Shown: in pieces, positions 4,281 to 40,353 of the stretch | How the letters are laid out: each line of letters opens with the position of its first letter | Position numbering within the stretch: position 1 is the stretch's first letter | Virus record (IMG/VR): IMGVR_UViG_3300032294_001387 | Span: 1-45,475 of that record | Origin: a virus | Length of the DNA: 45,475 bases | Strand: one strand, 5' to 3' | Notes under the pieces: model-generated | What the model was told of the DNA's origin: nothing | Database searches by the model: none | Seen by the model: the letters and a program-made list of their open reading frames with translations, nothing else | Program-made: the position numbers and the translations under genes

Positions 4281-5102
4281 TTAGCGACAACAAGTAACAC
4301 GGCAAAGTTTTTCCCAATTCGGATTAGAACGGCGGAGATTAGCAATCTTAATAGCGATACGAAGGCTCAACTCGCGAAGAGACTCAGCGTGGATTTCAAT
4401 AAAAGAAACCACATCGGCTCTCTCTTCAATCGTAAGGTTATTCAGCATACCGTCTTCAATAACCTGACGGATACGAATAAGATAGTCACGGCGAGTCTTA
4501 AGAGAGAGATCAATATAATGAGCACGAGAGATAAGAGCCTCAAGATGTGGCGCAATCTTATGCCCACGGTCAACCATACCGTCCATATCGAGATTAGTAA
4601 TAAAGATTACCGTCCCGTTAAAGTCAAAAGTCGACGGGATAATCTCTGCCGTCTCTTCGTCAATAAACTTAGCCTCCGAACGCCAGGACACACGGCGGCG
4701 ATCTGTGGTATCACAACAAGCCTTCAAAAGATTGAGGGCAACATCATCATACATAATAGCATCAGCGTCATCAAACACGATAACCTGACCCTCGTTACGG
4801 TATTGATAAAGCGTCTTATAAAGACCAGTCGCCTTAACATAACCCTTAATAATCGTGTGATTATTTTCGCTCGGATCCCAGGCGTTCAAAGCACGCTCAA
4901 CCGTAAAAGACTTACCTAATCCCGGAGGACCAGAGACGATAAGAGCACGGGCATCGCCCTTAATAGAAGTTTCGGTTAGCGTAGATAGGATTTCAAAACG
5001 CTCGCGGATACGCTCTTCAATAGCATCATCGCTTTCGGCGACAGCGTCAACGGCGGCGATAGCATCTGCTTTCGGACGGGTATTACGATAACCACGAGCC
5101 AT
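4281..5102 (-). CDS. AAA+ ATPase, 273 aa
   Basis: Walker A GPPGLGKS (residues 58-65), Walker B VIVFDDAD (107-114), sensor 1 Asn in VIFITN (170), and an arginine-rich segment about 190-205. The family is found in several large phages; the partner is not evident. Such ATPases remodel protein-DNA complexes, but the substrate here is unknown. First gene behind the promoter at 5129-5157, co-transcribed with the SWIM gene, so the zinc protein could be its adaptor (inference). Confidence 0.85.
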   Translation of the reverse strand: MARGYRNTRPKADAIAAVDAVAESDDAIEERIRERFEILSTLTETSIKGDARALIVSGPPGLGKSFTVERALNAWDPSENNHTIIKGYVKATGLYKTLYQYRNEGQVIVFDDADAIMYDDVALNLLKACCDTTDRRRVSWRSEAKFIDEETAEIIPSTFDFNGTVIFITNLDMDGMVDRGHKIAPHLEALISRAHYIDLSLKTRRDYLIRIRQVIEDGMLNNLTIEERADVVSFIEIHAESLRELSLRIAIKIANLRRSNPNWEKLCRVTCCR

Positions 5103-15390: not shown

Positions 15391-15421
15391 TTGACTTTCT
15401 AATGAGGGTATTATATAAATA
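15391..15421 (+). promoter_or_regulatory. Fused early and late promoter of pmoC
   Basis: TTGACT (15391-15396), 17-base spacer and TATAAA (15414-15419) form a sigma70-like promoter. The same bases are the start of TATAAATA (15414-15421), an exact T4-type late promoter. Both predict a transcript start near 15426. Confidence 0.7.
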
Positions 15422-15430
15422 ATGATAAGA

Positions 15431-15477
15431 GTGGCAGTTTCACTGTCACAGATTATAACTAAGGCGAAACTGACCAC
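15431..15477 (+). promoter_or_regulatory. Switch-like 5' leader of pmoC
   Basis: Two mutually exclusive hairpins share the left arm at 15431. Short form: 15431-15438 with 15442-15449, 8 bp (one G-U), TTC loop. Long form: GTGGCAGTTTC (15431-15441) with GAAACTGACCAC (15466-15477), 11 bp with one bulge. Only about 32 bases separate the long form from pmoC. Could stabilise the mRNA 5' end or control translation. Confidence 0.5.
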
Positions 15478-15509
15478 TTGATTTTATTTCCTACTAAGGA
15501 GAATAATTG

Positions 15510-16271
15510 ATGAGTACAGTAACTACTACCGCTGTTGCGGAAAAGTCAGATGTCGTTGATCTTCGTGGAATGTGGATAGGACTTGGACTCCTAAACGTAT
15601 TCTATCTAATTGTCAGAGTTTATGAGCAGGTATACGGCTGGAGGGCTGGACTTGATTCATTCGCACCAGAGTTTCAGACATATTGGATGTCTATTCTCTG
15701 GACAGAGATTCCACTTGAGCTTGTATCAGGACTCGCTCTTGCTGGTTATCTTTGGAAGACAAGAGATCGTGACATTGATGCAGTTGCTCCCCGTGAAGAG
15801 ATGCGTCGTCTTGTAACCCTTGTTCAGTGGCTCGTTGTATACGCAGTAGCAATTTACTGGGGCGCTTCGTTCTTTACTGAACAGGACGGTACCTGGCATA
15901 TGACTGTTATTCGTGATACTGACTTTACTCCAAGTCATATCATTGAGTTCTATATGTCATATCCAATTTACTCAATCATCGCAGTTGGTGCTTTCTTTTA
16001 TGCTCGTACCCGTATTCCATATTTCTCTCATGGATACAGTCTGGCATTCTTGATTGTAGCTATCGGACCATTTATGATTATCCCTAATGTTGGTCTCAAC
16101 GAATGGGGTCATACATTCTGGTTCATGGAAGAGCTGTTCGTTGCTCCGCTTCACTGGGGCTTCGTGTTCTTCGGCTGGATGGCTCTGGGTGTATTTGGTG
16201 TTGTCCTACAGATTCTCGGACGTGTTCATGCCCTAGTTGGTCGTGAAGGCGTTAGACTTCTGACTGAATAA
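15510..16271 (+). CDS. pmoC: Particulate methane monooxygenase subunit C (PmoC), 253 aa
   Basis: Membrane subunit of the copper enzyme that oxidises methane to methanol. Ligands are intact: Asp126, His130, His143 (EQDGTWH...DFTPSH) and Asn197, His201, His215 (LNEWGH...APLH), matching Asp156/His160/His173 and Asn227/His231/His245 of M. capsulatus PmoC. Signature GWRAGLDSFAPEFQTYW and WKTRDR are present; six or so membrane helices. ATG 15510 follows AAGGAG; a TTG just before is less likely. No pmoA or pmoB nearby, so it must join host subunits. Wording is closest, from memory, to alphaproteobacterial PmoC. AmoC is the related alternative but the motif wording fits PmoC. Confidence 0.95.
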   Translation: MSTVTTTAVAEKSDVVDLRGMWIGLGLLNVFYLIVRVYEQVYGWRAGLDSFAPEFQTYWMSILWTEIPLELVSGLALAGYLWKTRDRDIDAVAPREEMRRLVTLVQWLVVYAVAIYWGASFFTEQDGTWHMTVIRDTDFTPSHIIEFYMSYPIYSIIAVGAFFYARTRIPYFSHGYSLAFLIVAIGPFMIIPNVGLNEWGHTFWFMEELFVAPLHWGFVFFGWMALGVFGVVLQILGRVHALVGREGVRLLTE

Positions 16272-16282
16272 GAAAAAAAATA

Positions 16283-16312
16283 AAGGGAGAGGTATTGACT
16301 TCTCCCTTTTTC
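16283..16312 (+). terminator. Terminator after pmoC
   Basis: AAGGGAGA (16283-16290) / TCTCCCTT (16301-16308), 10-base loop, then TTTTT. The loop holds the -35 box of the next promoter. Confidence 0.85.
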
Positions 16313-16324
16313 ATATTATATTAT
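16295..16324 (+). promoter_or_regulatory. Promoter of hsp20 nested in the terminator loop
   Basis: TTGACT (16295-16300) lies in the loop of the pmoC terminator; 18 bases later TATTAT (16319-16324) in an AT-only stretch. Gives hsp20 independent expression. Confidence 0.6.
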
Positions 16325-16379
16325 ATAAGCGTTGCCTCAAAGGAACGCTAATACAAATCTCGCTGAAAAGGAGAAACAT

Positions 16380-16817
16380 ATGACTGATTATCTGTTTGAT
16401 ACTAAAAATATGAATAAGTACCTGGTAGGGTTTGATAAGGTTTTTGATACTCTCAACAATGTGAGTAGCAACTATGTGAAAGCGGCTCAAGCATGGCCGT
16501 TCTATAATATTGTAAAGGTCGATAAAGACAAATACAGAGTAGATCTTGCAGTGGCAGGTTTTGGTAAGAATGAAATCGACATTGAGCTTGCAAATAATAC
16601 TCTCGTGGTCAAAGGCTCCCTGAACTCAGAAGAAACTGAAGATTCGCCTGTTGAATATCTGTTCAAAGGTATTGCGGATCGTTCGTTCACTCGCTCATTT
16701 ACATTAGCCGATCATGTTGAAGTGAAAAACGCTGAGTTAGTGAATGGCGTTCTCAGAATCTGGCTCGAGCATCTGCTTCCGTTGGAGAAGCAATCAAAGA
16801 AAATCAATATTGAATAA
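16380..16817 (+). CDS. hsp20: Small heat shock protein (Hsp20/IbpA-like), 145 aa
   Basis: ATP-independent holdase chaperone. The alpha-crystallin domain (about residues 38-135) shows AVAGFGKNEIDIELANNTL, VVKG, GIADRSFTRSFTLADHVEV and GVLRIWLEH, close to the IbpA group of proteobacteria. ATG 16380 follows AAAGGAGAAAC. Hsp20 genes are also known in T4-type cyanophages. Its place right behind pmoC suggests it may protect a membrane enzyme or virion assembly under stress (inference). Confidence 0.92.
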   Translation: MTDYLFDTKNMNKYLVGFDKVFDTLNNVSSNYVKAAQAWPFYNIVKVDKDKYRVDLAVAGFGKNEIDIELANNTLVVKGSLNSEETEDSPVEYLFKGIADRSFTRSFTLADHVEVKNAELVNGVLRIWLEHLLPLEKQSKKINIE

Positions 16818-16821
16818 CATT

Positions 16822-16842
16822 GGGGGCTTCATGCCCCCTTTT
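16822..16842. terminator. Bidirectional terminator
   Basis: Perfect GGGGGC (16822-16827) / GCCCCC (16833-16838) stem, 5-base loop, TTTTTTC on the right. It ends hsp20 rightward; the stop codon of the leftward endonuclease lies inside it. Confidence 0.85.
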
Positions 16843-17410
16843 TCTTGCATTTATCTCCGTGCCATCTGATGTAGTTTATTTGGTTATGACCCTCTTTGCT
16901 ACAATGTTCACAAGTCCAGGAGACGGTAAAGTTATGAGTTCCGTTCTGTAGACGGGCGTTATTATTTCTTATTGTTAGCTCTCTCTGCTTATCGCTATCC
17001 TGCCACGGATGAATACCTTTTTTGGATTTGACCTTGGATGGATTATTCTCTCCGCAGAATAAATGATCTCCGCTGGCTACACGTTCGCGTTGGCGCTTGC
17101 TTACAATAGTTGAGTCGATAGAGATGTTATCTGTCTTATTGAGCCATTTATCTTCAGTAACTACTTTCATCCTGACCAGTACTTTTCTTTCATGATCTCT
17201 GGCAGCATCCTTATTATCGAATACTTTTCTTATCTGGATAACGTCTGGCTCTCCGTTCAGTTTTCTGAAACGCTCTACGTATTTTGATGAAGTGAAATAG
17301 GTTTGCCATAGTTCATCGGGGTGACAGTCTTGTCCGTATCTTACTCCATAATACCATATATTATGTTTGGACCAACCGATTAGATATGTGTACGGCTTAT
17401 AAATATACAT
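16829..17410 (-). CDS. GIY-YIG-type homing endonuclease, 193 aa
   Basis: N-terminus YTYLIGW...IWYYGVRYG is the GIY-YIG core of SegA-like phage endonucleases, with Arg and Glu residues following (ARDHERKVLV). Middle: NUMOD3-like helices (GIHPWQDSDKQRE). C-terminus: zinc finger CEHCSKEG...RWHGDKC, closely related to that of the endonuclease at 3335. Start 17410 (MYIYKPYTYL) is preferred over an ATG five codons upstream because GAGGAGCGCC is correctly spaced and the leader box ends there. Inserted leftward between rightward hsp20 and endolysin. Confidence 0.85.
   Translation of the reverse strand: MYIYKPYTYLIGWSKHNIWYYGVRYGQDCHPDELWQTYFTSSKYVERFRKLNGEPDVIQIRKVFDNKDAARDHERKVLVRMKVVTEDKWLNKTDNISIDSTIVSKRQRERVASGDHLFCGENNPSKVKSKKGIHPWQDSDKQRELTIRNNNARLQNGTHNFTVSWTCEHCSKEGHNQINYIRWHGDKCKKKGA
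17398..17405 (+). promoter_or_regulatory. T4-type late promoter for the endolysin
   Basis: Exact TATAAATA on the plus strand, 86 bases upstream of the endolysin ATG. It lies inside codons 2-5 of the leftward endonuclease (Tyr-Ile-Tyr-Lys). Confidence 0.65.
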
Positions 17411-17411
17411 G

Positions 17412-17472
17412 CTGGCGCTCCTCATTAGCGTTAGAGTAGGTAGGACTGCAATCCGTGACCTACACCTATTTA
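17412..17472 (-). promoter_or_regulatory. Late promoter and leader of the leftward endonuclease
   Basis: Leftward CTAAATA (17466-17472), then hairpin GTAGGT/ACCTAC (17458-17463 with 17436-17441), then the shared box CTCTAACGCTAAT...GGAGCGCCAGC ending two bases before... the ATG at 17410. Its promoter faces the endolysin promoter at 17398. Confidence 0.55.
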
Positions 17473-24939: not shown

Positions 24940-25575
24940 ATGAAGAAATTTACTGATCATATCTTTGAAGAGAAAAAGGATCCTACGTCCGATACATTTC
25001 ATGCTTTTGACATCGATGATACTTTATTTCATCATGACAAGAACAAACTCCGTATACATGTTAAAAATCCTAATGGTCGCCGTGTAAGAACTCTTACTAC
25101 AAAAGAATACGCAAACCATACACTGGATCCTGGGCATACTTATGATTTCACAGAGTTCAAATCCGCAGACACTTTCAAAAAATCAGCCAAACCTATTCGT
25201 AAGATGATTGCGAAGCTGAAAGCGATTCATAAAAACAATAAAAATGTAGAGCTACTTACAGCAAGATCAGACCTTGACGACAAGGACAAATTCGGTCATT
25301 ATATGAATCAGTTCGGTATAGATACCAACGAGATTCATGTTCGTCGAGCAGGTAATCACGAAGAAGTTCCAGGTCATGTAGCAAAAGCAATGATTATGAG
25401 CGACCAGATAAATAAGAATGGATATAAAAAAGTTCACTTATACGACGATTCAGAGGCAAACTTAAAAGAGTTTCTCAGGCTCAAAAAGAAACACCCAGAG
25501 GTGGAGTTTCATGCCCATCATGTTCAACACGATCCTGAGACTGATAGAGTCGTTGTAACTACAAGGAAAGTATGA
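24940..25575 (+). CDS. HAD-like phosphatase with capsid-targeting N-terminus, 211 aa
   Basis: HAD motif I FDIDDT (Asp24, Asp26), motif II region VELLTARSD, motif IV HLYDDSE, so a phosphatase or phosphohydrolase; the substrate is not evident. Residues 1-10 (MKKFTDHIFE) match the T4 internal-protein targeting signature, with predicted cleavage after Glu10. The same gene order with a HAD protein in the late region occurs in cyanophages (recall). GAGGAACTC before ATG. Overlaps the next gene by four bases. Confidence 0.8.
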   Translation: MKKFTDHIFEEKKDPTSDTFHAFDIDDTLFHHDKNKLRIHVKNPNGRRVRTLTTKEYANHTLDPGHTYDFTEFKSADTFKKSAKPIRKMIAKLKAIHKNNKNVELLTARSDLDDKDKFGHYMNQFGIDTNEIHVRRAGNHEEVPGHVAKAMIMSDQINKNGYKKVHLYDDSEANLKEFLRLKKKHPEVEFHAHHVQHDPETDRVVVTTRKV

Positions 25576-26975
25576 TGCACAGTTTCTCTGAATATCTTCA
25601 AGAAGCGGCTAAGAAGAAAGCAGCTAAAAAAACAAGTGGATTTAGTACTGGAGATACAGCGGGTAAGTTGTTTGAACTTCTTAAAGGGTATCATCAGAGT
25701 AGAAATGAATTTCCTAAACATTACAGAGCCGAAGGAAAAACTCCTAAAGATATTCATGATACAATGGCAAAGAAAATGTTTGGCGATGATTTTGAAAACA
25801 ATGAAGAATATAAAAATTTGGTTCAAACAGCGAAGATAGCTTCAGAACATAATACAAGATACAACGAATTAGAACATGGCCATGATCCTTCTCAGGGATA
25901 TCAAAAAGTTGCCTGGACTTCACAACCTTCAGATCACGAATCAGAAACAGGCGTTAATGATCCAAACTCTGTTGCAGATTCTATTGCTACTCTGCATCAT
26001 GGTCAGAAAGTTGGTCATTCTGACAAATTAACCGCTGTCAATAAGCCTGTCAATTACAAGAATCCTGGAGTAAAAACTTTTTCTGCTATGTCAGGCGCTG
26101 ATCTTTCTGGTGTTGGCGACGCTCACGCTGAGTTGCTTAGAAAACATGATATAAACAGTGGCGATAAAGGATATCTGAAATGGGCTCAATGGAAAGGTAA
26201 AAGACAAGACGAAAAGGCTAAGAAAAAAGGAATATACTACGAACCAAGTGATGAAGAAAGAAAAAAAGCAGAAGAAATAGAAAAGTCATCTGCTCTTGTG
26301 AATCAAGAAGTTGCCAGAAGAATGCATGGTGGATTTTCTTCTATAGCTGCAGCCGATCGTCAAAATGGCACTACAAATCTTAGAGATGCTATTGAAAAAG
26401 CTGTTGCTGGTCCAACACACTTAAGAACTTCGGTTACTCATACTGAAGCAAATCCTGATGGTTCTCATCATAGAACAACAGTATACGATTTGCATGATCA
26501 TGTAAATCAATATCTAAACCATTTCGATAACTATCATGTTGAACCAGAACACAAAAAAGGTTTGTCTTCTGTAGCTATTTACGGTCATTTTAGACACCCA
26601 ACAGACCCTAACCATCCAATGAATGGTAAAAGAATGAGGGTTGCAAATATTTCTGTGTACTCTGGTGGAAGACCAAACAACGTCAGTCCTCGTGGTGCAA
26701 TAACATTGCCAAGCGAACACCATAAAGAAATAGTTTATCAAAATCATGTAAGTAGCGATCCACAGATGCATACTTATAATGAACCAAAGGGTAAAACACC
26801 AATAAGAACTTTTTCTCAACAAACAGCTGCAGTTCCTGCCAAAACAAAAAAAGTTTCTCCGGGTGGTTTCGGAGAACATAGAGGAGATGGTCCATATGTA
26901 TTTGACCCACACGAGCACAAGATGCATCGTGTCGATGAAGTTGGTGGACTTTCATGGAGAGGACCAGGAGAATAA
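25572..26975 (+). CDS. Virion-associated protein with capsid-targeting N-terminus, 467 aa
   Basis: No catalytic family recognised. Starts MMHSFSEYLQE; from the second Met (25575) the first ten residues HSFSEYLQE fit the targeting signature with cleavage after Glu. A Lys/Ala-rich linker follows (AAKKKAAKK), then a His- and Asn-rich body (DPSQGYQKVAWTSQPSDHESE) and a long region with conserved-looking strands (LSSVAIYGHFRHPTDPNHP). Likely packaged in the head, by its signal and position. Confidence 0.7.
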   Translation: MMHSFSEYLQEAAKKKAAKKTSGFSTGDTAGKLFELLKGYHQSRNEFPKHYRAEGKTPKDIHDTMAKKMFGDDFENNEEYKNLVQTAKIASEHNTRYNELEHGHDPSQGYQKVAWTSQPSDHESETGVNDPNSVADSIATLHHGQKVGHSDKLTAVNKPVNYKNPGVKTFSAMSGADLSGVGDAHAELLRKHDINSGDKGYLKWAQWKGKRQDEKAKKKGIYYEPSDEERKKAEEIEKSSALVNQEVARRMHGGFSSIAAADRQNGTTNLRDAIEKAVAGPTHLRTSVTHTEANPDGSHHRTTVYDLHDHVNQYLNHFDNYHVEPEHKKGLSSVAIYGHFRHPTDPNHPMNGKRMRVANISVYSGGRPNNVSPRGAITLPSEHHKEIVYQNHVSSDPQMHTYNEPKGKTPIRTFSQQTAAVPAKTKKVSPGGFGEHRGDGPYVFDPHEHKMHRVDEVGGLSWRGPGE

Positions 26976-30834: not shown

Positions 30835-31974
30835 ATGACAAAATACGTTAGTCTAGAACATTCAATCAGATTGGTTTGTGAAGATAAAGTAGAACGTTTT
30901 CACAAAGTCGGCGTTACATATACTGATGCTGGCGAAAAGACAATGAAGCATGTTCGTGTAAAAGCTAAGAGCGAAGCACATGCTCTTGAAAAGGCAAAAG
31001 CTCACTTCAAGAAAAAAGGTTATCGTATTCATGATGCTATTCATGCTGGTGTTATGAAAGAAGATATTAGTAACACTGATAAGTTTGTTGGTGATAAGAA
31101 ACCAGTAGCCAGACCACCTGTTCGTATTACACCAGATGCAACTAGAGACGCTCAAGATAAATCAGTTTCGTTTTCAAGAGCTAATCAAAAAACAAGTCAA
31201 ACTGCAGGTAATAATGTAGAAGAAGGAGTCATTGGCGACACTATTGAAAAAGGTCGTAAATGGGTTCAGGATAAAGTAAAAGATTCACCTACATTTAAAG
31301 CTGCTCAAGAGTTTGGTCATAACCTTCCGGGTTATGAAGATGCTAAAGATGCTAAACAGCATTTTGCAAAAGGCGAATATGTTGATGCTGCAAAAAGCAC
31401 TCTTCACTCTTTAGGAAAAGCAGCTGCCACTGGAGCAGCAGTAGCCGCTGGTGGTTACGCAGCTTCAAAAGCTATCCCAGCTTTAGCTACTGGGGCTGCT
31501 GTTAACGCTCTAACGGGTTCTGGAGGATCAACAGCTAATCCAAGTAATCAACAAAGTAATGCGCCCAATGCAAAGGGTCAAGATTATCACCGTCCTAAAA
31601 CTGGTGTTTCTAGAGTTAAGAGACATAGAGTTCATGAATCCGTAGGCACTGAAGAGCGAGAAGAAATTAAAAACGTACCACGTAAAGAAAATAATTCTCG
31701 TGATAAAGTTGAATACGTTGATCGTGAAACATTACCAACTTCAAGAAATGAAAAGCTAACAAGACAATCAGAAATACAACGTAAAGTTATTGATGAAGAG
31801 TCTAAGAGAAAAGCTGACATTGTTAAAGAAGTCAGAAAAGAAAAACTAGGAGCGGATCCTCTAAGATCAAAAAACGTAAATGATCCACTCGGCGATGGTA
31901 AAACAAGAAAATATGGTGAAGTTGTGATCAACCCTCCTCTTGATTATAAAAATTTGTTGAACACTTCTAACTAA
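30835..31974 (+). CDS. Virion-associated protein, 379 aa
   Basis: N-terminal module (residues about 22-75: FHKVGVTYTDAGEKTMKHV, then SEAHALEKAKAHFKKKGYR) recalls a repeated small domain in T4-type virion proteins. The middle has a hydrophobic Ala/Gly segment (about 195-220, AAATGAAVAAGGYAASKAIP) that could be membrane-active; the tail is charged and likely disordered. Starts two bases after Dps. Function unknown. Confidence 0.65.
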   Translation: MTKYVSLEHSIRLVCEDKVERFHKVGVTYTDAGEKTMKHVRVKAKSEAHALEKAKAHFKKKGYRIHDAIHAGVMKEDISNTDKFVGDKKPVARPPVRITPDATRDAQDKSVSFSRANQKTSQTAGNNVEEGVIGDTIEKGRKWVQDKVKDSPTFKAAQEFGHNLPGYEDAKDAKQHFAKGEYVDAAKSTLHSLGKAAATGAAVAAGGYAASKAIPALATGAAVNALTGSGGSTANPSNQQSNAPNAKGQDYHRPKTGVSRVKRHRVHESVGTEEREEIKNVPRKENNSRDKVEYVDRETLPTSRNEKLTRQSEIQRKVIDEESKRKADIVKEVRKEKLGADPLRSKNVNDPLGDGKTRKYGEVVINPPLDYKNLLNTSN

Positions 31975-35935: not shown

Positions 35936-36907
35936 ATGGCTCAGTGGGGTAGAAATAAAGCATCTGTAAATGTAACTCCTACTTCTACTGTGGAGACTAC
36001 AGAAGGTGCACCAATAGGCGTTTGGGCTCTCGTCAACAAAGGCGGCGGTCCAAACGCCCATTTTGGTAACACATCAGGTACACGTGCAAGAACTGATCTT
36101 GATATGTATACCAGCAACGACTTTAGTCAGTTCGTTAACAATATGGCTATTGGCGTTTACGGTTTTACTCCAGGAGATACTAAACTTCCAGGTAGAGTTG
36201 ATGATATTGTTCTTAATATCAATATAAGAGGCGGTTTATACGATCCACGTAATGGATACGAACCAAGAATGAATATTGTTATGGCTAACGGGTTTGTTAA
36301 TCGCACATGGGCATATGGTGCTGTTGCTAACTCTTATTATGTGTTTGACGTTCCTGGCGAAGTAAGTACTATATTTACTGGCAACAGTGCACTTGAAGAT
36401 GTTAATGAAGGTGCACCTATATGGGCAGACGAAAGTCCAAAGAGACCAGTATACGCAAATAGTACTTCTATTGTAAGAGGCAATGCAGCTTCAGGAACTT
36501 TTGGTGGATTCAGATTTACTAATCTTGGATACGCTGTTGCTGAGTTTGCTGCAATAAATGATGATGTATATTATACTGTACCGTTTGGTGAAACACCAAT
36601 AGCTCCTCTTACAGCTAATACATGGTATAGAGTAGCAGCTATTGAAAACGGCGACACTATTGTTATTGGAACTCGCAGATCTTCTGATAAAATAAGAATA
36701 ACAGATTTCAGAGCAACTGTTACTGCTCCAGCGCCAACACATTTTATTAATGGTGAGACGTTTGCTTTTCGTGTAGAGTTTACTCCTGGCGCTAAGATCA
36801 AAAGTTCTCATCCAGGTTGGAATATAAGAAAAGAAGGAACTGGTGGAAGAAAAGGCAGAGTCCAGTATGAATGTTTAGTGGCAATGGGCACTATTTCTAA
36901 CACATAA
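35936..36907 (+). CDS. Virion protein, paralogue 2 of 3, 323 aa
   Basis: Same N-terminal (MAQWGRNKASVNV...NAHFGNTSGTRARTDLDMY) and C-terminal (HPGWNIRKEGTGGRKGRVQYECLVAM) blocks as its neighbours. The middle shares VPFGETPIAPLTANTWYRV with the corresponding stretch of paralogue 1 (GAGETAITPLVANTNYLI) and paralogue 3. Starts 18 bases after paralogue 1 behind AAGAAGGTAAGTT. Confidence 0.8.
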   Translation: MAQWGRNKASVNVTPTSTVETTEGAPIGVWALVNKGGGPNAHFGNTSGTRARTDLDMYTSNDFSQFVNNMAIGVYGFTPGDTKLPGRVDDIVLNINIRGGLYDPRNGYEPRMNIVMANGFVNRTWAYGAVANSYYVFDVPGEVSTIFTGNSALEDVNEGAPIWADESPKRPVYANSTSIVRGNAASGTFGGFRFTNLGYAVAEFAAINDDVYYTVPFGETPIAPLTANTWYRVAAIENGDTIVIGTRRSSDKIRITDFRATVTAPAPTHFINGETFAFRVEFTPGAKIKSSHPGWNIRKEGTGGRKGRVQYECLVAMGTISNT

Positions 36908-36942: not shown

Positions 36943-39900
36943 ATGCCACTCTGGGGTAATAAGAATCAGCCTGTAACCGCTAACCTAACAACAACTTTCG
37001 AATCGACTGAGGGAGCACCACTGGGCACTTATGTGCATGTAAAGGGTGATCAGATCGATCGTAAGGGTTCGGCTAATGCTCATGCTGGTAACACTGTTCC
37101 AGGGTCAAGAGCTCGTACTGATTTTGATATGTTCGAGTCGAGCATCTTCAATGAGTTTATGCCCAACATGGCTGTTGGTGTTTATGGAGTATATGCTAAC
37201 TCTCCTGACCTGGGTAAGAATAAAGAATACCACGATTATGTAAACGATATTCATGCCCGTAAGAAACATCTAAAGAAATATAAAGAACTACCAGATGGCG
37301 AGCAACTAAAGTATAAAGTTGTAAACGAAGGTTGTGGGTATTCTGGTGGTCCACAAAGACGTGGTGTTCCTATAAGACTTTATTTCGCAAATGGATATGT
37401 CGATACAACTTCTGTTCAAGGAGATATCTATTTCAGTGGAGTCATTGACCCACCCGATCCAAAGAATGGTAAGATTACAGGCTACACAGTAAATCAAGAA
37501 CTGTTCGTTGATGAACCGCCTAACTGTGATATTGATCCTCCAGAGAACTTTTACATAGCTTGTAATAAAAATCAACTATTACCAGCAGGGTTTGCTATTG
37601 ATTATGCACAATCTGTATTTGGTAAAGGCGATAAAGTATTCTATTATGTTCCTTCTGGCAACACACCTGTTGCTCCTCTTACTGGCAATACATATTATTA
37701 TATTGCCGATGTAAATGTTGAATATGTAGCATTTTCTGAAACACCTAATGGCACACCTATTGTCATCACAGATCCAAGATTAAACTCTGATGATCCAGCT
37801 GCAGAACAGCATACGCTTCAAGGAGAACAGGCTCAGATAGAAGCATATATTGAACGTGCTAATAATATTGGTTCATCTCATGCTGGCTGGATTCTTAGAA
37901 AAGAGTTCAAGGGTGGTAGACAGGGTCGAGTTCAGACTGAATGTCTTGTTGCTATGTCTTCTCTTGAAGAGGGTGTTATTCCTCCTGGAGAACCAGAACC
38001 TATTGTATATGACATAAATCCAGATTATGGCACAGAGTTCGGTGGTGATACTATTACTATCACTGGAGAAAACTTTATCTCATTCGAACCAGAAAATCCT
38101 ATGGAGCATGTTGGTGACACGTATGCTACACGTGTTCTGTTTGGTAATGTGTTTGCCAATGATGCAACTGTTCATGTAGCAAATAATACATCTCTTACTG
38201 TTGTTACTCCAAAGGCTAACAAACCAGAGACTGTTGATGTTCGTGTTCAGACTGGTTATGGTATCAGCCGAGTTGGTCCAAAAACAAAGTTCACTTACTA
38301 TATCACAGAACCATATATCAAAAGCGTAACACCTAATCGTGGTGGATATTTGGGTCAGACAAATGTAGATATTATCGGATTTAACTTTGGTTCGACTACA
38401 CAGGTTCAATTTGATAATATCAATGCTCTTAGTTTCAATGTTGTGAGCAATGAATATATCAGAGCTGTTTCTCCTCCGCACCCAAATGGCACTGTTAATA
38501 TTATTGTAACGGGCGCTAATGGAGCCAGCGATCCAGATCCAACTTCGGAGTTCACATATTATTCTGCTATTCCTACTGTTAGCAACGTAGATCCTACTTT
38601 TGGAACTTTAGATCCTGCTTCAGCAACTATTAATGGCACTGGTTTCATTCAATATAACACAAAATACGTTGGGGATACATCAGGATTAAAAGTATATTTT
38701 GGAGATTATGAAGCAAATATTACATCTGTTGTTTCTGATACACAACTTATTGTCGATCCTCCTGCTGTTCTAAGACCTAATACTGTTAATGTTATTGTTA
38801 GAAACGTATACGGTAACAGTGTTCCTAATGCAAACAGCAAGTTCAGATATTACGCAGATGGTCCAACAGTTTCTAACTGTTCTCCAAAAGAAGTTTCTGC
38901 TCTTGTTCCTGTAGATGTTACTGTTTATGGTAACAATCTATGGGATGCTACAGAAGTTCGCTATGGCGGTGTGTTCTTCGTAAAAAATAATATTCGTGTT
39001 GCTGCTGATGGTAAATCTCTTGTATTCACCACAATACCAGATGCTAATGTAAATAGATATATGACAATCGCGGTAGACACTCCATCAGGAATGACACCAG
39101 ATGTTTATAACTGTGGTATAAACTATATCAACTTCCCATTTATTGATGATCTTTCTATTCACGCTATTGATTACCGTTTTACTAATACTGTAACAGTAAC
39201 GGGAATGAACTTTAACAATCCATCTTTCAAAGTTGACAATGTCTATTTACAGAGACAAGGCACTGGGCCATTTGCTACTAAGTATTATGCTAATAGTTCT
39301 ACTATTAAAATAGCTAATAACACAAGCCTAACTTTTCAATTTCCAAATTTTGCTCAGCTTGGAGCTCCTATATTCACCACATATGTCACTGTCCTTAGTG
39401 CTAACAACAATTTGTTGAGCACTAATACTGCTGGTTCTGAAGTATATGTTGATAATTGGACACCGTTTATTGAAAGAGTTGATCCTAAAATTGGACCAGT
39501 AAAAGGGTTTACCGAGATTTATTGTTATGGTAAAAACTTTGCTCAATCAACTATAGCTAATGCTCAGCTTGGAGAAGGACCAAGTGGATTAAGAGCAAAA
39601 AGCGTAAGAGTAATAAACAACAACGTAGCTGTTGTTGTTGCTCCTACTGTAGATGCAAATACAGTAGGTAAAAACTATAATGTCATTCTTAATTCTACAA
39701 CATGTGGTTCTTCGCCTGTTGGTGCAAATACAATATTCACATATACTAACAACTCTGGTACTATTCAGTCATTTACATTGAATTACCCAGGTTGTGGTTA
39801 CAATAACAACCATCTTCCTATTAAAATTACTGCACGTCTGGTCAGTAATGGTATGATTGATAATAGAGCTGGTACAGCTGGAGCTGAAACTTCAGGAGCA

Positions 39901-40353
39901 AATAGAGGTAGAATCACAAGCGTTGTTGCTAATACTAACTTCCCTGTTCTGTTCAGAGGTTTTGATAACACTCCTCTTATAACTATTGAAGAACCAGAAA
40001 AATATTCTTTTGCTGCTAATCAGTCTGGATTCTCTGGTTGGCCTTCTTCTACAAGAGCGTTTGCTTTGTTTGGCGCACAAGATATTTTCCAACCAGGAGA
40101 CAAAGTTCTTTATACTGCTGTTGGTCCTGGTGGTCCGCTTAGACCTCTAAAGAATCAAACATATTATTATGTCACTCAGATTCAATCAGGTTGGCCACAA
40201 AGCACATTCCAGTTAGCAGAAACTAAAGCTGACGCTCTTGCTAATGTTGCTTTATTCATTAATGATACTCGATTGAACAGTAATCAAGCAACAAACGATA
40301 TATCATTTGTTCAGGGCGAAACAGCTAATCTAACATATACATTGGTACCATAA
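36943..40353 (+). CDS. Giant virion protein, paralogue 3 with IPT/TIG repeats, 1136 aa
   Basis: Residues 1-345 repeat the plan of paralogues 1 and 2 (MPLWGNKNQPV...NAHAGNT...; SHAGWILRKEFKGGRQGRV). After that come about six Ig-like IPT/TIG repeats, each opening with P-x-(I/V)-x-x-(V/I)-x-P and ending in a V-x-G-x-N/F strand (for example PIVYDINPDYGTEFGGD, PYIKSVTPNRGG, PTVSNVDPTFG). The C-terminus repeats the FxPGD(K)V...LTGNTYYY pattern. Probably a fibre or surface adhesin that contacts the host. Confidence 0.82.
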   Translation: MPLWGNKNQPVTANLTTTFESTEGAPLGTYVHVKGDQIDRKGSANAHAGNTVPGSRARTDFDMFESSIFNEFMPNMAVGVYGVYANSPDLGKNKEYHDYVNDIHARKKHLKKYKELPDGEQLKYKVVNEGCGYSGGPQRRGVPIRLYFANGYVDTTSVQGDIYFSGVIDPPDPKNGKITGYTVNQELFVDEPPNCDIDPPENFYIACNKNQLLPAGFAIDYAQSVFGKGDKVFYYVPSGNTPVAPLTGNTYYYIADVNVEYVAFSETPNGTPIVITDPRLNSDDPAAEQHTLQGEQAQIEAYIERANNIGSSHAGWILRKEFKGGRQGRVQTECLVAMSSLEEGVIPPGEPEPIVYDINPDYGTEFGGDTITITGENFISFEPENPMEHVGDTYATRVLFGNVFANDATVHVANNTSLTVVTPKANKPETVDVRVQTGYGISRVGPKTKFTYYITEPYIKSVTPNRGGYLGQTNVDIIGFNFGSTTQVQFDNINALSFNVVSNEYIRAVSPPHPNGTVNIIVTGANGASDPDPTSEFTYYSAIPTVSNVDPTFGTLDPASATINGTGFIQYNTKYVGDTSGLKVYFGDYEANITSVVSDTQLIVDPPAVLRPNTVNVIVRNVYGNSVPNANSKFRYYADGPTVSNCSPKEVSALVPVDVTVYGNNLWDATEVRYGGVFFVKNNIRVAADGKSLVFTTIPDANVNRYMTIAVDTPSGMTPDVYNCGINYINFPFIDDLSIHAIDYRFTNTVTVTGMNFNNPSFKVDNVYLQRQGTGPFATKYYANSSTIKIANNTSLTFQFPNFAQLGAPIFTTYVTVLSANNNLLSTNTAGSEVYVDNWTPFIERVDPKIGPVKGFTEIYCYGKNFAQSTIANAQLGEGPSGLRAKSVRVINNNVAVVVAPTVDANTVGKNYNVILNSTTCGSSPVGANTIFTYTNNSGTIQSFTLNYPGCGYNNNHLPIKITARLVSNGMIDNRAGTAGAETSGANRGRITSVVANTNFPVLFRGFDNTPLITIEEPEKYSFAANQSGFSGWPSSTRAFALFGAQDIFQPGDKVLYTAVGPGGPLRPLKNQTYYYVTQIQSGWPQSTFQLAETKADALANVALFINDTRLNSNQATNDISFVQGETANLTYTLVP

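Follow-up and report, generated by a model that had tools for sequence, protein, structure and literature searches.

We identified a complete, stand-alone gene for subunit C of particulate methane monooxygenase (pmoC) at positions 15510–16271 (+ strand) of a 45,475-nucleotide virus record (IMG/VR IMGVR_UViG_3300032294_001387; hereafter the window), preceded by a T4-type late promoter box and a conserved leader. It is fairly probable that the gene serves a T4-like phage, one that infects a Methylocystis-like methanotroph, as an auxiliary metabolic gene, and that it would replenish PmoC in the host particulate methane monooxygenase (pMMO) late in infection. Phage-borne, stand-alone pmoC is already known (Chen et al. 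2020, PMC7674155; PMC10904782) and the window phage belongs to the pmoC-phages described in 2020, while the description of its promoter and leader goes beyond both accounts.

The open reading frame runs from an ATG through 253 codons with no internal stop, and its product matches Pfam AmoC (E = 7e-109), aligns over the full length of PF04896 (PmoC/AmoC; 363 bits against a curated cut-off of 26.7, residues 5–245) and exceeds the cut-offs of both NCBIfam models, TIGR03078 and NF041641. The nearest solved structures are Methylocystis/Methylosinus-type PmoC chains (3rfr, 4phz, 7s4m and 3chx). A first-pass annotation of this DNA, made from the letters alone, was right to call a complete PmoC. The same annotation had matched six metal ligands to the crystallised enzyme. 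All six are present and correspond in a gap-free alignment with a constant offset of 30, in which D126, H130 and H143 equal M. capsulatus D156/H160/H173 (CuC) and N197, H201 and H215 equal N227/H231/H245 (CuD), but the CuD site was observed by cryo-EM (7s4h) and not in the crystal. These ligands are invariant across 80 phage PmoC proteins, that of the window included. The protein is 93% identical over residues 15–253 to its counterpart in Methylocystis sp. JZJ.7 (L082), and the N terminus is unlike those of hosts. A search of an annotated phage collection found no relative of the protein. The top-scoring Methylocystis chains (3rfr, 4phz, 7s4m) share its family and ligands; the phage gene differs in lying outside a pmoCAB operon and in having its own codon use, N terminus, promoter and leader.

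The window also carries a T4-like gene set, as first annotated, comprising DNA polymerase gp43, UvsX, a DnaB-like helicase and primase, together with thymidylate synthase, DNA ligase, endolysin and Hsp20. Its gp43 is ~50% identical to cyanophage homologues, and the order hsp20, a few genes, gp43, uvsX is common to the window and Prochlorococcus phage P-SSM4. In most relatives within this lineage the small heat shock gene hsp20 (16380–16817, +, in the window) adjoins pmoC, lying ~100–160 bases 3′ of it. Homologues of pmoA and pmoB, likewise reported missing at first reading, were found neither in the window, which is a genome fragment, nor in 80 related viral loci, nor in twelve records from related viruses (108–372 kb); as positive controls, the searches recovered pmoA and pmoB from two Methylocystis genomes. 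An intron-like DNA endonuclease homologue (16829–17425, −) is encoded on the opposite strand in the interval from hsp20 to the endolysin gene, near a frequently recombining gene. Four other large open reading frames, at 36943–40353 (1136 aa), 35936–36907 (323 aa), 30835–31974 (379 aa) and 25572–26975 (467 aa), had no PHROG match at E 0.001.

Upstream of pmoC lies the box TATAAATA (15414–15421, +), the T4 late promoter sequence. Among 45 distinct regions upstream of phage pmoC, 31 have it no more than 150 nt 5′ of the gene, against 0 of 73 bacterial ones, and it also precedes pmoC in phages with a separately acquired gamma-type gene. Across nine records of the window lineage, 25 of 29 boxes stood in the correct orientation before open reading frames (2.2 expected), and the box precedes the capsid gene gp23 in L245 and L246; three phages of another lineage (L248–L250) have none before gp23, and that lineage has none before pmoC either. 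The box is common to late genes of the same lineage, as expected of a T4-type late promoter. T4 late transcription starts 6 nt past the late box, and the predicted start here falls at about 15427.

A −35-like hexamer, TTGACT (15391–15396, +), lies 17 bp 5′ of the late box and may serve a second promoter. TTGACA-like hexamers (at most one mismatch) were found 16–18 bp 5′ of the box at 15 of 30 pmoC boxes versus 3 of 83 others, an enrichment that suggests an overlapping host-type (sigma-70-like) promoter whose start would coincide with that of the late promoter. At the other end, a terminator-like hairpin followed by a T-rich tract (16282–16309, +) stands 3′ of pmoC. With its late-type box, leader and hairpin, pmoC looks like its own transcription unit, and the phage-style promoter, leader and terminator mentioned in the first-pass annotation can now be assigned to definite positions. 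A generic promoter scan of the window was uninformative (18 found, 14.9 expected).

The conserved leader extends from the predicted +1 to the start codon (15427–15509, +). Nineteen distinct leaders were aligned, and in every one exactly five variable bases separate the box from an invariant AAGAGTGG. Folding and alignment give two hairpins: the first (15429–15479, +) has a GAGUGG/CCACUU stem in which one A is bulged, and its top varies; the second (15487–15502, +) covers the Shine-Dalgarno GGAG (15498–15501). Mean folding z of the pmoC leaders is −3.1. The modelled probability that the Shine-Dalgarno is unpaired averages 0.16, against 0.37 in 81 control genes, a modest difference (~30th percentile), and the leader probably hides the ribosome-binding site. 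Covariation was sought across the aligned leaders and none was found; in hairpin 1 there is no compensatory change because the GAGUGG/CCACUU stem is invariant. We regard RNA structure in the leader as likely rather than proven.

The leader is tied to one gene. Six of the eight phage records searched with its model have a single strong copy, always at pmoC, and collection matches that combined the box with a complete leader all ran into pmoC, whether whole, truncated where the contig stops or carrying an internal deletion. A general late-gene leader is ruled out by that single strong copy per genome in six of eight records and by the other collection matches, which have no remainder of the leader. 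Capture from a host pmoC operon is ruled out as well: nothing similar lies 5′ of bacterial pmoC, and the model found nothing in five Methylocystis host genomes. Searched against Rfam 15 at E up to 1, the leader matched no family; weak Rfam matches at 16269–16390 (preQ1-II, SpF39 and others) fell far under gathering scores. A two-state attenuator with alternative AGUGG pairing was dropped, as a competing fold came within 2.5 kcal/mol only in L025. One reading, which we offer tentatively, is that the phage makes the leader as a regulatory RNA specific to this gene, in which a shared late/sigma-70 start, a long hairpin and a masked ribosome-binding site would tune PmoC output during infection; the invariant stem of hairpin 1, with its bulged A, would then be a likely site for a protein or small RNA. 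If so, it would be a riboregulator, hitherto unreported, acting on a viral metabolic gene. A second phage lineage (L031, L032, L034, L035, L038, L046, L051 and L052) has a different structured leader in the 150 nt 5′ of pmoC, unrelated in appearance, with two hairpin-like repeats (for example, GACCGGG..CCCGG..CCGGTC) and no TATAAATA.

These elements are compatible with a role in replenishing the host enzyme. Late in infection, the phage's late transcription, aided by the overlapping sigma-70-type promoter that shares its start, would yield a short pmoC mRNA, and the leader may stabilize this message or meter its translation. Phage PmoC would insert in the host membrane and join or replace the PmoC of host PmoABC, and the fresh CuC and CuD sites could let methane oxidation and energy supply persist as host expression fails. 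T4-like cyanophages carry psbA, whose product D1 is a single core subunit of an energy complex of the host, and phage PmoC may work as PsbA does in replacing host D1, although the complex is another one and replacement is far better shown for D1-type genes than for pmoC, where we infer it. In transcripts of other pmoC-phages, pmoC was expressed with structural genes, which supports late co-expression (Chen et al. 2020, PMC7674155). Against the proposed role we count the few transcripts seen in that study from the three smaller pmoC-phages of alpha and gamma hosts in Lake Rotsee, the N terminus unlike that of hosts and the losses of pmoC in related phages. The first-pass annotation described a true stand-alone, phage-borne PmoC, but its statements that the protein must exchange into host complexes and that the phage controls methane oxidation are both overstated.

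Because phage PmoC is made without PmoA and PmoB, it might instead be non-catalytic, acting as a decoy that dismantles pMMO, as a copper carrier or as a rearranger of intracytoplasmic membranes. We consider this unlikely: the protein has retained the six ligands and almost all of the membrane core, at 93% identity to a host subunit, and a decoy would need neither, an argument that bears on the decoy and not on a copper carrier.

Replenishment also has to be weighed against the losses. In two groups of contigs, one of five (L169, L188, L190, L191 and L195) and one of three (L183, L184 and L193), the middle of pmoC is deleted at two different junctions, leaving the leader, start codon, ~36 N-terminal codons and the C-terminal end, and in L238 pmoC is wholly lost, with the promoter and first part of the leader remaining directly 5′ of the hsp20 promoter and leader. 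As several related phages have lost the middle or all of the gene, pmoC must be dispensable at times. A single deletion variant (CB_5) within a population and fragmented pmoC copies had been described before (Chen et al. 2020, PMC7674155). Both sets of observations would suit a passenger gained from hosts by recombination, often lost and of small benefit to the phage. That account seems to us improbable, slightly more so than a non-catalytic role. Selection for the protein is shown by dN/dS of 0.02–0.12 between the window gene and 19 phage relatives over large synonymous distances, by the invariant ligands, and by the promoter and leader that many phages conserve specifically for this gene.

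In a protein tree of 118 rows, the window sequence falls in a phage-only clade of 14 (support 99/98) inside the Methylocystis group, and the 34 phage sequences of alpha type all group together, weakly supported (85/67), beside Methylocystis sp. JZJ.7. A placement outside PmoC, which the first-pass annotation had named as grounds for rejection, was not seen. Other phages carry gammaproteobacterial PmoC types and the host/phage labels on the tree require at least three changes, which implies repeated capture of pmoC. Third-codon GC is phage-like (GC3 0.37 versus 0.75–0.79 in host pmoC) and synonymous sites are saturated against hosts; with the low dN/dS, this identifies an old, selected phage gene rather than a chimaera. 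The gene is intact, long resident in phages and held by purifying selection. A methanotroph host had been proposed at first reading: the tree supports a Methylocystis-like source for the gene, and the host itself is predicted to be a Methylocystis-like methanotroph solely from that ancestry. Where the pmoC genes of host and phage are almost the same, they are known to confuse assembly (Chen et al. 2020, PMC7674155), but the objection, raised in the first-pass annotation, that phage flanks were joined to a host gene is very hard to sustain against this codon use and divergence, the many phage-only kin that share leader, pmoC and neighbours at ~71–83% DNA identity, and a separate contig, L001, identical over 10,298 bases, which may derive from the same sample.

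The neighbouring hsp20 has its own sigma-70-like promoter (16295–16324, +), whose −35 box lies within the terminator hairpin; similar TTGACT and TATAAT-like boxes occur in many relatives. Its leader (16327–16382) has a covarying hairpin followed by UYGCU pairing with the Shine-Dalgarno AGGAG, and the same type was seen in L267 (~4918–4965), L269 (~2912–2958), L259, L260 and L263–L266. Among 19 pmoC-phage leaders, 31 cells showed compensatory changes versus 9.3 in shuffles (0 of 500 reached 31), and 18 of the 19 pair UCGCU or UUGCU with AGGAG, a motif that recurs in cyanophages (P-SSM4 and metaG-MbCM1). As in ROSE elements, a UYGCU anti-Shine-Dalgarno upstream of a small heat shock gene pairs AGGA and leaves a G unpaired; Rfam ROSE models were not reached in the window (ROSE_3, 17.1 bits versus gathering 43), and there was no match in six relatives. 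The hsp20 leader is a candidate ROSE-type RNA thermometer that pmoC-phages share with cyanophages. We found no paper linking cyanophage hsp20 to an RNA thermometer, and this may be newer than the pmoC finding itself.

The window phage resembles the pmoC-phages of freshwater lakes (PMC7674155) in its stand-alone pmoC (no pmoA or pmoB found in this genome fragment or the twelve long related records), T4-/cyanophage-related backbone, hsp20 beside pmoC, conserved CuC ligands, Methylocystis-type PmoC and deletion variants among its kin. As in those phages, phage core genes accompany pmoC, and PmoC groups with proteobacterial methanotrophs at >90% identity (93% to L082). There is no difference in kind, while the late box, overlapping −35, leader and its gene specificity are absent from that account, in which neither 'promoter' nor 'leader' occurs, and we found no report of viral pmoC with a late promoter in the open-access literature. 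Viral amoC of viruses of ammonia-oxidising archaea (cited in PMC7674155) is similarly a case in which a copper membrane monooxygenase is represented by its C subunit alone, but belongs to archaeal ammonia monooxygenase; PDB AmoC chains are much poorer matches to the window protein (~214–225 bits against 524).

With a defined late promoter, start site and leader, the timing and strength of phage pmoC expression become directly testable, and the leader, present once per genome and persisting as a scar after pmoC loss, offers a DNA marker for pmoC-phages. Through such genes, viral pmoC could alter the amount of methane consumed by freshwater bacteria.
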